This document shows, piece after piece, positions 19,081 through 27,466 of a stretch of 50,547 bases of DNA. A program made the position numbers and the translations under genes. The stretch's first letter is position 1. Every line of letters begins with the position of its first letter. Source of the stretch: Acidobacteriota bacterium (GTDB lineage Bacteria; Acidobacteriota; Polarisedimenticolia; Gp22-AA2); NCBI GenBank assembly GCA_018606725.1, contig JAGYID010000008.1, positions 2,501 to 53,047 on the forward strand. The letters are read 5' to 3'. The notes beneath the pieces were generated by a model. It did not search any database and had not been told where the DNA came from. It worked only from the letters and a program-made list of their open reading frames with translations.

Positions 19081-20175
19081 TCAGAGGGTCGCGGCGAGAC
19101 GGTGGAAGTCACGCCGCACGGCGTTCATACTGAACTCCCGGACGCGCGGGTGCACCCGGTTGGTCAGCAGGATGTAAACGCGCCCGCGTTCGGCATCGAT
19201 CCACAGCGATGTTCCGGTGAAGCCGGTGTGGCCGAATGCCGAGCCAGGCAGGGCGCCGGCCGCGGCGCAGCCGCGCGTACTGGCCAGCTGAAAGCCGACC
19301 GAGCGGTCTTCCTCGCCGCCGGGCGTCTGGTTGACCCGGAACATCTCCCTGTCGTGAGTTGCCAGGAGCCCCTCGCCTCGATCGAGAAACTGCAGGGCCA
19401 GGGCGTGCACGGCCCGCGCCGTGCCGAACAGCCCCGCGTGCCCCGCCACGCCGCCGAGCGTCCATGCATTGTGATCGTGGACTTCTCCCCAGATCACCCC
19501 GGTGCGCCAACCATTGTAGCGGTCCCCATCCGGCCCGGCCAGCTGCCGCTCTCGGGCGTTGCCCGCCTCGGTCGCCGCGATCCTGCGGCGCTCCTTCTCC
19601 GCCGGCCGGAACAGCAGGTCGGCGATTCCAAGGACACCCGTCACCCGCTCGGCGAACAGCGTCTCCAGGGAACGGCCGGTCATCCCCTCGAGGGCGAAGC
19701 CGAGCAGGATGTAGCCGAGGTCGGAATAGCCGACCCCAACACCGGGCGCGGCACGCAACGGGACCCGGCGCAGCCAGGCGACGCGGCCGCTTCGGTCGGA
19801 GGCGTGGATGTAGAGCGGCGCCCACGCCGGCAGGCCGGAGCGGTGGAGCAGCAGGTCCTGGAGGGTGATGTCATCCCGCTGGTCGCCGCCGATCCATTCC
19901 GGCAGGTGCTGTGCCACGCGATCTTCGAGCCGCAGCGTGCCGTCCCGCCGCAGCAGGATGGTGATCAACGCCGTCGCCAGGGGTTTGGTGAGGGAGGCGA
20001 GATCGTACAACGTCGCCAGCCCTGCCGGAATGATCTCCGGCTCGACGACGGCGCGGCCGAGGGCACCCTCGGCGAGGATCGTCTCGCCCTGCGCCACGAG
20101 ATAGGCGGCGCCCGGGAAATCGGCGGCGGTGATCCGATCGCGCAGGAACGTCTCGATGCCCGGCGAGGCTTTCAT
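19081..20175 (-). CDS. Serine hydrolase of the beta-lactamase/penicillin-binding (class C-like) family
   Basis: This 364-residue enzyme carries the SxxK motif as SLTK (S61, K64), a YSD in place of the usual YxN (in the GYSDLGYILLGF segment), and HTG as the third motif near the C-terminus (GHTGFTGT). These place it in the class C-like esterase/peptidase group. The substrate is unknown; peptidoglycan peptide trimming or ester hydrolysis are both possible. No signal peptide is seen, so it may be cytoplasmic. ATG at 20175 was chosen; a longer frame upstream only reads through the previous gene. Its position after lpxA and the oxidoreductase suggests an envelope role. Confidence 0.87.
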   Translation of the reverse strand: MKASPGIETFLRDRITAADFPGAAYLVAQGETILAEGALGRAVVEPEIIPAGLATLYDLASLTKPLATALITILLRRDGTLRLEDRVAQHLPEWIGGDQRDDITLQDLLLHRSGLPAWAPLYIHASDRSGRVAWLRRVPLRAAPGVGVGYSDLGYILLGFALEGMTGRSLETLFAERVTGVLGIADLLFRPAEKERRRIAATEAGNARERQLAGPDGDRYNGWRTGVIWGEVHDHNAWTLGGVAGHAGLFGTARAVHALALQFLDRGEGLLATHDREMFRVNQTPGGEEDRSVGFQLASTRGCAAAGALPGSAFGHTGFTGTSLWIDAERGRVYILLTNRVHPRVREFSMNAVRRDFHRLAATL

Positions 20176-20206
20176 GGCGTGCGGGCGCGGCTGTGGCGAG
20201 CCATTC

Positions 20207-21211
20207 CTAGGAGCCGACGAGGCGAATCTGATCGACGATCCGCAGAGCGGCGCGCAGCGCCAGCAACCCCTCATCGGCGCTCACGACCGGGGCATCCCCT
20301 CCCCGGACCCGCTCCGCGAAGGCGCGCAGCTCGGCGTCGAGCGGCTCGCCGGCGGTGACCGCGATCGCCTCGCGGACGATCTCCGGGTGGGAGGCGCCGC
20401 GACGCAGCGTATAGGCCATCGCCTCCTGCTGCGCGCAGTCGATGGCCACGTAGCTGTCGCGCGTGAACACCCGGATCTTGCGCACCCGCTCGGCGCTGAT
20501 CCGGCTGGCGGTCAGGTTGGCGACGCAGCCGTTTTCGAAGCGCAGCCGCGCATTGGCGATGTCGACCTTGTCGGTGAGCGCATGCACGCCGACGGCGTCG
20601 ATGGCGGCGATGGGCGACCTGACGGAGCTCAGGACGATGTCCAGGTCGTGAATCATCAGGTCGAGCACGACGTCGACGTCGGTGCTCCGGGCGGTGAAGA
20701 CGCCCAGGCGGTGCGCCTCGATGAAGCGCGCTTCGCGCAGGCGCGGCGCGGCGGCGCGGAACGCTGGATTGAAGCGCTCGGTGTGCCCGACGCACAACAG
20801 CCGCCCGGCGCGGCGCGCCGCCGCGACCATGCGCTCGGCGTCCTGCAGGTTCGCCGCCATCGGTTTTTCGACCAGGACGGCGTACCCCCGGCCAAGGCAC
20901 TCCTCGACGACGACGGCATGGGCCGACGTCGGGACGGCGACCGTCACCGCGGCGAGGTCCGCCGGCAGGTCCCCGATCGACCCCAGCGCGCGCGTGCCGT
21001 GGCGCGCGGCGATGTCGGCGGCGCGATCCGCGTCCCGATCGACCACCGCCGCGAGGCGCACCCCGGGCATCCCGGACAGGAGCCTGGCATGGTGCTGCCC
21101 GAGGCTGCCGACGCCGATGACGGCGACCCGGAGCGCCTCCGCCTCGCTCAGCGAATCACCCCCCGCTCGCTGTCGCGGATGAAGGCAGCCAGGTCGCGCA
21201 CTTCGGCGCAC
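20207..21211 (-). CDS. Gfo/Idh/MocA-family oxidoreductase next to lpxA (GnnA-like candidate)
   Basis: The product is a typical NAD(P)-dependent sugar dehydrogenase with an N-terminal Rossmann fold (VAVIGVGSLGQHHA), the family motif EKPMA and a C-terminal beta-sheet substrate domain. In Acidithiobacillus a related enzyme, GnnA, oxidises UDP-GlcNAc at C3 between lpxA and lpxB, feeding amide-linked lipid A. The position after lpxA suggests the same here, but no GnnB aminotransferase is in the window. GTG at 21211 is the nearest standard start, giving 334 residues and a 64-base overlap with lpxA. A CTG at 21151, forming a CTGA overlap with the lpxA stop and preceded by GGGGG, would give a cleaner N-terminus (MSEAEALRVAV) and may be the real start. 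Confidence 0.86.
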   Translation of the reverse strand: MRRSARPGCLHPRQRAGGDSLSEAEALRVAVIGVGSLGQHHARLLSGMPGVRLAAVVDRDADRAADIAARHGTRALGSIGDLPADLAAVTVAVPTSAHAVVVEECLGRGYAVLVEKPMAANLQDAERMVAAARRAGRLLCVGHTERFNPAFRAAAPRLREARFIEAHRLGVFTARSTDVDVVLDLMIHDLDIVLSSVRSPIAAIDAVGVHALTDKVDIANARLRFENGCVANLTASRISAERVRKIRVFTRDSYVAIDCAQQEAMAYTLRRGASHPEIVREAIAVTAGEPLDAELRAFAERVRGGDAPVVSADEGLLALRAALRIVDQIRLVGS

Positions 21212-24345: not shown

Positions 24346-27300
24346 TCAGAAGGTCGTTCCGATGCTGAAGATGAAGTTGCTCGGATCCTCGCCTCCGCGC
24401 GGGTTCTGGATCCAGCCGTAGATCAGCCGCAGCGGCGCCTGGAAAACCGGCAGGTAGAAGCGCATCTCGATGCCGTAGTCGACCCGCAGGTCCTTCAGAC
24501 TGACGGACTGACCGTTGTCGTAGGCGTTGCCGGCATCGTAGAAGAACGTGAACTCGACGGTGTCGGACAGGGGGATGTTGTACTCGCCGTTGAACATGAT
24601 GTACTGCTTGCCGCCGGGGTACACCGCCCCGTACACGCCGTCGCCGTTGGTGTCCTCTCCCGGGTCGAGGGCGCAGTTGCCGCCCTGACCCTCGCCGTCG
24701 ATCGGCTGCGGCAGTCCGTCCATGTTGAGGTCATCGGCGGGGCAGAATGGCGTGAAGAGTCCGTCGAATGCGTCCTCGCCGGGATCCAGCCGATTGTTTC
24801 CGTTGTGGTCCTCCGTGTCCAGCACCCCGTTGCCGTTGAAGTCCTCCCCCGGGTCGAGAACGCCGTTGCGGTTCAGATCCTCGGTGTCCAGGATGCGGTT
24901 CCCGTTCTGATCCTCATCCGGGTCGAGGAGGCAATTGCCGTGGTCGCTCTCGCCCGGGTCCTGCATGCCGTTCATGTTGACGTCATCCGCCGGGCAGAGC
25001 GGCGTGAACGAGCCGTCCGGGGTATCCTCGGGTCGCCCGATGAAGCCGTTGCCATTCACGTCCGTATCAAGCCGCACCGGGCTGACGGAACGGGCCGGGA
25101 ACAGTCGCAGGCTCCGCTCACCGCCGAGAAAGAAGCGCTCGTAGGTCGGGATGACCCTGCCGCCGAACGGCTCGATATAGCCGTAGGACGCATTCAGCCC
25201 GACGTAGTGGCGCTTCATCAGGCCGGGCAGGAACAGCGTGCCGTCGAGACGCGGCTTGTAATAGTAGTTGTCGCCGCCGAGCGGGCCCCCGGCGAGCTCG
25301 ACGCTCGCCAGCAGACGGTAGCCGTGCGTCGGGTGGAAGTAATTGTTGCGGGTGTCCATGCTCCAGGCGCTGGTGACGCTGCTGGTCGTGCTGCGCGGCT
25401 GGTTCACCACGTAACCGGCCCGGGTCGGGATGAAGTCGGTGGTCTGCAGGCCATAGATCACGTCGAACCGGCTGAAGGCGCCCAGCAGGCGCCCGACGGA
25501 AACCGTGCTCCCCTGGTCGCGGCGCCTGAACCCGACGTAATCGGTCTGTCGATTGAACAGCGAGAGCCCCAGAGTCCAGGGCTTCCCGAGAAACCACGGC
25601 TCGGTGAAGCTGATGGAGTAGCGGTCGGCGCGCTTGCCGGTCTGGATGAACAGTGACAGCACTTCGCCCCGCCCCAGGAAGTTGCGCGTCGAGTAGGACG
25701 CCTGAAAGAATCCGCCCTCCAGACCGGAGACGCCGCCGCCGACCTGGATCTCGTTGCGGCTGGTCTCGGTCCCCTTGACCTCGACATCGACCTTGTTGCT
25801 GCCCTCGAGGGGCTGCACGTTGGGATCGTCCCCCACCTGAAAGTAGCCGAGCTGCGCGATCTTGCGCACCCCGAGCCGCAGCCGCCGGACGTTGAACAGG
25901 TCCTCCTCGATCAGCGGCACTTCGCGCCGCAGCACGGTGTCGCGCGTCGTCGTGTTGCCGACGAACTCGATCCGGTCGACGAAATACTTCTTGTCCTCCG
26001 TCACCACCAGCTTCAGGTCGGCGGTCTGCTCGTGCTTCTCGATCTGAGGATCGAGGGAGACATAGAAATAGCCGCGCTCGCCGTAGTCATCCTCGATCCG
26101 CTTGGTGGCGAACTTGAGCAGCGCGTCGTTGAACACCATGCCCGGGCGCAACCGGAGGCGGGACAGGATCTCAGGGGAGCTGAACACGCTGTTCCCCTCC
26201 ACGCTCATCCGGCCGACCTTGTATTGCTGCCCTTCCTCGATCGGAACCGTGACCAGGACCTGCTTCTTCGCCGGCTTCTCAGCTTTCTTCTTCGCCTTGA
26301 GCTCCGCCTCGACGCGCTTCTTGCGCTGCTTCTCGGTCTCGCCGGGCGGCGCCGGCGAGGGGACCGCCGGCTCCCAATCGTCGACAGCGGGGTCATCGAC
26401 CGGCATCGGCGCGTGCGTCTTGCCCTTGCCCACGAGATCGACGATCTCCGGCTTGACGTTGATGTCGAGATATCCGACGGCCTTGTAGGCGCTGCGGATG
26501 TTGTCCGAATCCTGGTCGAACTTGGCCGGGTGGTAGAGCACCTTGCTCGAGGCAAACGACGACAGGAAGCCCATCTGCTTCGTCAGCTTCAAGGTCTTGC
26601 GGATCTCCCGGTCCGTGAACACCGTGTTGCCCACGAAGTCGATTTCCTTGATCTTGGTCTTGCCCCCCTCGCGGATGTAGAAGGTCACCTCGCGCTGCCC
26701 CTGGCTGAGCGGCGTCAGGCGGGACTTGACCCTCGCCTCCAGGTAGCCTCTCTCCTGGAGCAGCTGGCTGATAATGGCCTCCGCCTTGTGGAGCACCGAA
26801 AAATCGACCGGTTGGCCGCGCCGCACTTCCACCTTGGCCTGAGTCAGACGCTCCTGAATGTTCGCCTCGGTGATCGCCTTCATGCCGACGTAGGCCACGC
26901 CGCTGATCAGCGGCCGGTCGCGCACGTGGAAGATCAGGTCGATCGTGTCGGTGCCGCGTTGCCGCGATTCCACGGTGATGTCGTCGAACAGATCCAGGCC
27001 CCACAGACGACGGAATTCGTCCGCAACGGCTTTCGCGTCGAACGGGTCCCCGGGCTTGAGCCTGAGGCTGGAGAAGAACGCGCTGTCGGAGACGCGGATG
27101 TTGCCGTCCACGAAGATCTTGCCGATCACCTTGCCGCTCGCGGGGCCGGCGGCTTCGGGGGGGCCGGTCGTCTCGTCGGCGGGCGCCGGGGCCGCTCCAT
27201 CGTCCGGCGGTCGACTCTCACCCGGGACCGTCTCCTGGGCGGCGGGCGGCGGAGCCTGATCGGCTGGCGGACCGGCCGGGGCTTCGTGGCCCGGTTCCGG

Positions 27301-27432
27301 CGTCGGTTCCTGCCCGGCGGCGCGGCAGGGCAGCGGCCCGGCGAGGCCCGCCAGCATGGCGAGCACCGCCACGGCGCGCCCGGCGGCGCGCCCGCGCTCC
27401 CGGCGCGCGCTCACCCGCGAGCAGCGGCGCAT
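24346..27432 (-). CDS. bamA: Outer-membrane protein assembly factor BamA with a calcium-loop insertion
   Basis: BamA inserts beta-barrel proteins into the outer membrane. The 1028-residue product has a signal peptide, a Pro/Ala/Glu-rich spacer (about 40-95), five POTRA domains (about 98-530) and a C-terminal Omp85 barrel. It is longer than most BamA because of the spacer, a Lys/Glu-rich insertion in the POTRA3 region (about 331-392), and a DxNxNG-type repeat insertion (about 789-935) after the predicted loop L6 motif. That motif reads LRLF rather than VRGF. The barrel resumes with KQYIMFNGEYNIPL and ends in FIFSIGTTF, a typical aromatic-ended terminal strand. ATG at 27432 yields the signal peptide; no clear ribosome site is seen. 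skp follows. Confidence 0.95.
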   Translation of the reverse strand: MRRCSRVSARRERGRAAGRAVAVLAMLAGLAGPLPCRAAGQEPTPEPGHEAPAGPPADQAPPPAAQETVPGESRPPDDGAAPAPADETTGPPEAAGPASGKVIGKIFVDGNIRVSDSAFFSSLRLKPGDPFDAKAVADEFRRLWGLDLFDDITVESRQRGTDTIDLIFHVRDRPLISGVAYVGMKAITEANIQERLTQAKVEVRRGQPVDFSVLHKAEAIISQLLQERGYLEARVKSRLTPLSQGQREVTFYIREGGKTKIKEIDFVGNTVFTDREIRKTLKLTKQMGFLSSFASSKVLYHPAKFDQDSDNIRSAYKAVGYLDINVKPEIVDLVGKGKTHAPMPVDDPAVDDWEPAVPSPAPPGETEKQRKKRVEAELKAKKKAEKPAKKQVLVTVPIEEGQQYKVGRMSVEGNSVFSSPEILSRLRLRPGMVFNDALLKFATKRIEDDYGERGYFYVSLDPQIEKHEQTADLKLVVTEDKKYFVDRIEFVGNTTTRDTVLRREVPLIEEDLFNVRRLRLGVRKIAQLGYFQVGDDPNVQPLEGSNKVDVEVKGTETSRNEIQVGGGVSGLEGGFFQASYSTRNFLGRGEVLSLFIQTGKRADRYSISFTEPWFLGKPWTLGLSLFNRQTDYVGFRRRDQGSTVSVGRLLGAFSRFDVIYGLQTTDFIPTRAGYVVNQPRSTTSSVTSAWSMDTRNNYFHPTHGYRLLASVELAGGPLGGDNYYYKPRLDGTLFLPGLMKRHYVGLNASYGYIEPFGGRVIPTYERFFLGGERSLRLFPARSVSPVRLDTDVNGNGFIGRPEDTPDGSFTPLCPADDVNMNGMQDPGESDHGNCLLDPDEDQNGNRILDTEDLNRNGVLDPGEDFNGNGVLDTEDHNGNNRLDPGEDAFDGLFTPFCPADDLNMDGLPQPIDGEGQGGNCALDPGEDTNGDGVYGAVYPGGKQYIMFNGEYNIPLSDTVEFTFFYDAGNAYDNGQSVSLKDLRVDYGIEMRFYLPVFQAPLRLIYGWIQNPRGGEDPSNFIFSIGTTF
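24630..25068 (-). repeat. EF-hand/TSP3-like repeat array in the BamA barrel loop
   Basis: About ten calcium-loop units, mostly D-x-N-x-N-G-x-x-D-x-x-E-D at a spacing of 11 to 13 residues, span residues about 789-935. Two larger modules repeat the pattern DG(S/L)FTP(L/F)CPADD...GNC(L/A)LDP(D/G)ED, at about 25018-24918 and 24765-24660. Each module has two cysteines. The array is inserted before the strand KQYIMFNGEYNI. Confidence 0.9.
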
Positions 27433-27466
27433 CGTCAGGAGTTGCAGCCCCGGTCGTGGAGTGGGG

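Follow-up and report, generated by a model that had tools for sequence, protein, structure and literature searches.

An acidic calcium-loop-like array in extracellular loop L6 of BamA in one order of Acidobacteriota

In one order of Acidobacteriota (the gp22/AA152 relatives, represented by soil and groundwater genomes) the extracellular loop L6 of BamA carries an acidic array of calcium-loop-like repeats, about 150 residues long in the gene described here. A new observation is that arrays are also present in the LptD of the same order, in most of its sampled TonB-dependent receptors and in an OmpW-like barrel. BamA assembles the outer membrane and is essential in diderm bacteria that possess one. 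No description of a BamA with an EF-hand, TSP3 or calcium-loop array was found in the open-access literature. The chances appear about even that the array is an extracellular, probably calcium-loaded, rigid structure on the outer part of L6 and that it belongs to a structural trait of the whole envelope.

The bamA gene and its surroundings

The window, i.e. the whole 50,547-nucleotide stretch of DNA that was analysed, encodes BamA on the minus strand at 24349..27435, with the stop codon at 24346-24348 of the same strand. The gene product has a signal-like N-terminus, a proline-rich linker, five POTRA repeats and a 16-stranded barrel. It scores 484.5 bits against TIGR03303, the curated equivalog cut-off of which is 297.15. 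Pfam recognizes five POTRA stretches; its Omp85 match is in two pieces, separated by the insertion. The best PDB matches of the modelled protein in a Foldseek search are BamA structures. Together with the AlphaFold2 model described below, these results bear out the identification as BamA made in the original prediction. The genes of OmpH/Skp and LpxD, recognized by Pfam, directly follow bamA, and next come frames that are FabZ- and LpxA-like in their translations; the gene is set among outer-membrane biogenesis genes.

Several other features of the window and its genome were recorded. A charged, Lys/Arg-rich linker of ~55 residues is found within or beside POTRA3 (BamA residues ~336-391, window 26263-26430, minus strand). 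Its sequence differs between the window's family (f1) and the sister family that shares the array (f2); in f5 and f9, two other sister families, it is short. A serine beta-lactamase-family protein (PF00144) is encoded at 19081-20274 on the minus strand, downstream from the lpx cluster by a few genes. The genome contains a second Omp85 protein (L001, G000:C89), which has the canonical VRGF, a short L6 and no array.

Composition of the array

The array comprises BamA residues 788-937 (24625..25074, minus strand), as delimited by motif count, by the model and by alignment across relatives. It had been predicted as a calcium-loop-type repeat array of about 145 residues and about ten loops at 24630-25068, and the prediction stands with refined limits, a length of about 150 residues and nine motifs. 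These nine motifs, of the form D-x-[ND]-x-[ND]-[GN], compare with one in the remainder of BamA; in 5,000 shuffles of the array's own composition the number of motifs averaged 0.6 and never exceeded 6. Aspartate and glutamate account for 24% of the residues and lysine and arginine for 3%, and the net charge is about -31. Some of the loops are degenerate in the window copy (DTPDG, DLNMDGLPQP).

All parts of L6 are encoded on the minus strand. The array is preceded by the inner L6, RFFLGGERSLRLFPARSVSP (25075..25134), which contains the site of the VRGF motif, LRLF here, and was assigned by profile alignment to FYAGG..VRGFQxxTIGP of E. coli BamA and by motif comparison. The first cysteine module (24931..24996; CPADDVNMNGMQDPGESDHGNC) contains C814 and C835 in the motif CPADDVNMNG...GNCLLDP, and both cysteines are present in 6/6 intact f1 sequences and absent from 4/4 f2 sequences. 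The central loops (24808..24912; DQNGNRILDTE / DLNRNGVLDPGE / DFNGNGVLDTED), which have a period of 11-12 residues, are common to f1 and f2. The second module (24673..24744; CPADDLNMDGLPQPIDGEGQGGNC) contains C898 and C921 in the motif CPADDLNMDG...GNCALDP; both are again present in 6/6 intact f1 sequences and absent from f2. The two modules with CPADD, GNC(L/A)LDP and paired cysteines are thus present as had been described. The array is followed by the L6 return (VYPGGKQ), strands 12-16, the C-terminal FSIGTTF and the stop codon (24346..24624), a region defined by the second half of Omp85 (53.5 bits) and by the modelled strands.

Disulfides C814-C835 and C898-C921 may be formed within the two modules; DsbA-family genes are present in the genome, and no VKOR-type oxidase was found in it. 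At the DNA level the array contains only 2.1 copies of a 36 bp unit with a 76% match, and because the copies have diverged to this extent, the repeats are considered to be old.

Position of the array in L6

The AlphaFold2 model of the window BamA, for which an alignment of 31 relatives was the input, contains POTRA5 and 16 strands. Strand 11 comprises model residues 267-276 and strand 12 residues 467-478; the array lies between the two, a place that corresponds to extracellular L6, and in the cell it would be exposed at the surface. In the profile alignment to E. coli BamA, the family sequence RxFxTRxxSP sits against VRGFQxNTIGP, and the array falls between VRGFxxxTIGP and the conserved VGG. 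The array had been predicted to lie in L6, right after the L6 region proper. The assignment to L6 agrees with both model and alignment, and the strand count leaves the repeats inside this loop; the second part of the description has to be changed, since the array is itself the outer part of L6. The pLDDT is mostly 70-95 in the barrel and mostly below 50 in the array, and because of these low values nothing is concluded from the shape of the array, which is uninformative in the model.

In E. coli, L6 is in contact with substrates that are being folded, and no stretch of the superfamily is more conserved than the VRGF region (PMC6887485). The motif that follows GGERS in the window BamA is LRLF, as had been noticed earlier; the Arg and Phe of VRGF/Y are kept and the Gly is replaced. 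Many relatives in the class read GPRxFETR, in which the Arg and the aromatic residue are also kept. A link between LRLF and the array, which the original prediction implied, was rejected because a sister family (G018, L046) has the same LRLF, in the sequence GGERTLRLFE, and a 45-residue L6 without the array.

Relation to known folds and systems

The loops of the array fit the 12-residue EF-hand loop pattern with ligands at positions 1, 3, 5, 9 and 12, for example DLNRNGVLDPGE. The array resembles TSP3 (PF02412), EF-hand and dockerin proteins in its tandem acidic loops of the type D-x-[ND]-x-[ND]-G-x-x-[DE] and, in f1, in the interspersed cysteines. It differs from TSP3 and EF-hand proteins in several respects. 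The Pfam matches of the arrays to EF-hand models are sub-threshold and limited to the 12-residue loop (in the f2 array, four stretches match), and no family scores above its cut-off on the BamA array. TSP_3 has no match to the BamA arrays up to E=10, and a PDB sequence search with the array found no relative, the best E being 0.81. The loops follow each other every 11-12 residues and therefore leave no room for the helices of an EF-hand; the helix-loop-helix arrangement is absent, with no helices of note in the low-confidence model. An EF-hand or TSP3 fold in L6, which had been suggested as something to look for, thus reduces to the sub-threshold loop matches, and the Pfam results and the loop spacing place the array in neither family. 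The loop pattern nevertheless suggests that the array binds calcium, and it may be rigid.

The window BamA shares with the BamA of E. coli and other Proteobacteria the POTRA repeats, the 16-stranded barrel, the location of L6 between strands 11 and 12 and the Arg and aromatic residue of VRGF. The profile alignment also reveals two cysteines in the outer L6 of E. coli BamA. This outer L6, however, has a few tens of residues and no loop repeats, as opposed to about 150 residues, nine motifs and two cysteine pairs in the window. The closest described case is the canopy that lies over BamA in the Bacteroidota BAM. One of its components is the lipoprotein BamM, which contains seven calcium ions and is bound to L5, extended there by 76 residues (PMC12611786). 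Both systems have lineage-specific extensions of the outer BamA loops, L5 and L6 in the Bacteroidota, where a calcium-rich protein is situated above the barrel; there, however, the calcium is in a separate lipoprotein, the platform is L5, and L6 is only 16 residues longer, whereas the loops of the window protein are within L6 of BamA itself (PMC12611786). In BtuB, a TonB-dependent B12 receptor, calcium sites are situated close to the binding pocket on the outside (PMC7360065). Here, too, aspartates at the outward face of a barrel bind calcium, which orders a loop, but the site holds two ions and is linked to the substrate, unlike a long tandem array (PMC7360065).

Distribution and selection

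A scan of named genomes for relatives of the window bamA returned only Acidobacteria; those with the gene are gp22 AA2, AA3, AA4, AA152, PMV_2.74 and groundwater MAGs. The array is present in 10/10 sampled genomes of the order in which L6 is readable in frame. The L6 of f1, measured between the motif and the conserved GG that follows it, has 156-160 residues and four cysteines, and that of f2 has 106 residues, about eight loops and no cysteine. Two f1 members were left out of the intact set: in G001 (L012) the array is in a shifted frame near a contig end, which may be an error or a real lesion, and in G007 the bamA gene is cut by a contig end. Outside the order, L6 has 19-61 residues in the 20 distinct relatives measured, as compared with 106-160 within it. 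The length was taken from a text pattern; some relatives, in which the pattern did not work, were read by eye in the alignment, and none of them has the array. When 396 genomes of the phylum were compared with the C-terminal model, among the matches listed only those from this order run through the array.

In a tree built without the array columns one change suffices to explain this distribution, and the order has a support of 100/98. The array was thus gained a single time, in the ancestor of the order. In the nearest sister families, f9 and f5, L6 has 45 and 61 residues, respectively, with two cysteines each. The homologue search and tree mapping proposed earlier therefore confine the insertion to one order among the Acidobacteriota sampled, with a single gain, and a multitude of known BamA proteins with the same insertion was not encountered within the Acidobacteriota surveyed. 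The BamA proteins L015, L018 and L019, of families f11 and f12, contain one EF-type loop in L6, e.g. DRNGDGILDRND. These single loops were considered as a forerunner of the array, but in the tree they belong to a different clade from that of the array bearers, and such an ancestry is unsupported.

Loop ligand positions (D1, N3, N5, D9, E/D12) make up most of the invariant columns in the array. The pairwise dN of the array is 0.09-0.31 and the dS is 0.6 or more in f1 and f2, close to the values of the barrel, and dN/dS is about 0.07-0.35, like that of the barrel. Judged by these substitution patterns, the array is under purifying selection.

Arrays in other proteins of the order

The genome was searched with an idealised array, and the matched proteins were named by Pfam. 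Three TonB-dependent receptors of the window's genome have an array (they are of the OMP_b-brl_4 type, and the two complete ones also match CarboxypepD_reg and Plug), as does an OmpW-like barrel, for which the analysis covered this one genome. A kelch/TSP3 protein is also among the matches; its array resembles those of the receptors, as does that of a 502-aa protein of the order. At E<=1e-4 the idealised array has matches in 5/5 genomes of the order as against 3/144 other genomes of the phylum, with one match each. When a receptor is counted as array-bearing if it has three or more loops within 110 residues, the array is present in 13/17 OMP_b-brl_4-type receptors of the order (three genomes) and in 0/12 of three related families, a comparison to which no probability is attached because the receptors are related to each other. 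The arrays of the receptors and of the OmpW-like barrel are assumed, from the usual topology, to lie outside the cell. In the LptD of the order, a loop-rich insertion separates strands 13 and 14; in a low-depth model (pTM 0.51), strand parity places it on the outside. G010 has a long version of this insertion, G008 and G009 have short ones, and the LptD of related families lacks it.

Calcium-loop motifs also occur in L140, L141 and L142, which are three open frames with a length of about 3,050 aa. L140, the one that was scanned, is among the proteins matched by the idealised array and has TSP_3 repeats and no other Pfam match at E<=0.01. A common GCEG..RED.DCDG module with two cysteines is found in L136, L146 and L150, which are a kelch/TSP3 protein and further proteins that are not receptors, and in the f1 TonB receptors L137-L139, L144, L145, L147-L149, L164, L165 and L167; this gives the impression of a single cassette that has been passed from one surface protein to another. 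The arrays of the different proteins could also be convergent, low-complexity acidic loops.

Possible role of the array

The following sequence of events may be envisaged. The ancestor of the order would have gained about eight EF-type loops in an unbroken series, with no helices at their flanks, and in f1 the array would have been enlarged by two modules, probably closed by disulfides, near either end. The acidic chain, with its net charge of about -31, would be disordered without cations and stiff with calcium. Calcium bound in the D-x-N-x-N-G loops would then turn it into a stiff rod or cap above the BamA lumen, beside the lateral gate, while the inner L6 contacts, with the Arg and aromatic residue of VRGF, would be retained. 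The role common to the arrays on LptD, the TonB-dependent receptors and the OmpW-like barrel would be that of a calcium-stiffened or calcium-bridged surface layer.

Calcium-dependent gating was one of the possibilities named in the original prediction, beside an extracellular contact and a stabilising cap. In a calcium gate specific to BamA, calcium bound at L6 would determine whether the lateral gate or the lumen is open or closed. The contact of L6 with folding substrates in E. coli and the conservation of the VRGF region (PMC6887485) are in its favour, as is an L6 substitution that suppresses a bamH mutant in Flavobacterium (PMC12611786). As the leading idea such a gate is not supported, and it seems quite improbable, as the same order has arrays in LptD, in TonB-dependent receptors and in an OmpW-like barrel, none of which shares such a gate, and as the inner L6 motif keeps its key residues. 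Because the order decorates all these proteins, a shared role at the surface, in stiffening, spacing or calcium bridging, is preferred. The array may instead serve for the docking of a partner, either secreted or a lipoprotein, which would build a canopy above BAM; the secreted array proteins of the order would be the candidates. This is unlikely: BamM on the 76-residue L5 insertion of Flavobacterium BamA is a precedent (PMC12611786), and the kelch/TSP3 and 502-aa proteins bear receptor-like arrays, but no obvious partner gene is found beside bamA in the window and the array also occurs in proteins that have no known docking role.

It is also improbable that the array is an acidic low-complexity repeat that has grown in an exposed loop, where it is tolerated and has no function. 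Exposed loops do tolerate inserts, the number of loops varies between families, and one MAG of the same family has the frame-shifted array close to a contig end (L012). Against this, dN/dS in the array is like that in the barrel, the ligand positions and, in f1, all four cysteines are conserved over deep branches, the DNA repeats are old and diverged, and the array is kept throughout the order. A gene fusion, or an assembly error joining two genes, has nothing to recommend it but the oddity of the insertion; its probability is practically nil, since the gene is located mid-contig and independent genomes have the array in frame and flanked by barrel strands.

If the arrays have a surface-layer role, as their occurrence on several envelope proteins suggests, a more far-reaching and rather doubtful possibility is that the whole outer-membrane surface of these bacteria is a calcium-dependent protein layer, in which external calcium would stiffen, space or cross-link the essential assembly proteins BamA and LptD, the nutrient receptors and other barrels. 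A selected 150-residue insertion, present throughout an order at the conserved L6 of the essential BamA, is unexpected. It extends the finding of a calcium-bearing outer canopy of the Bacteroidota BAM to a case in which the calcium may reside within BamA itself, and it raises the question of whether external calcium organises the bacterial surface via barrel proteins, rather than by an S-layer or LPS alone.
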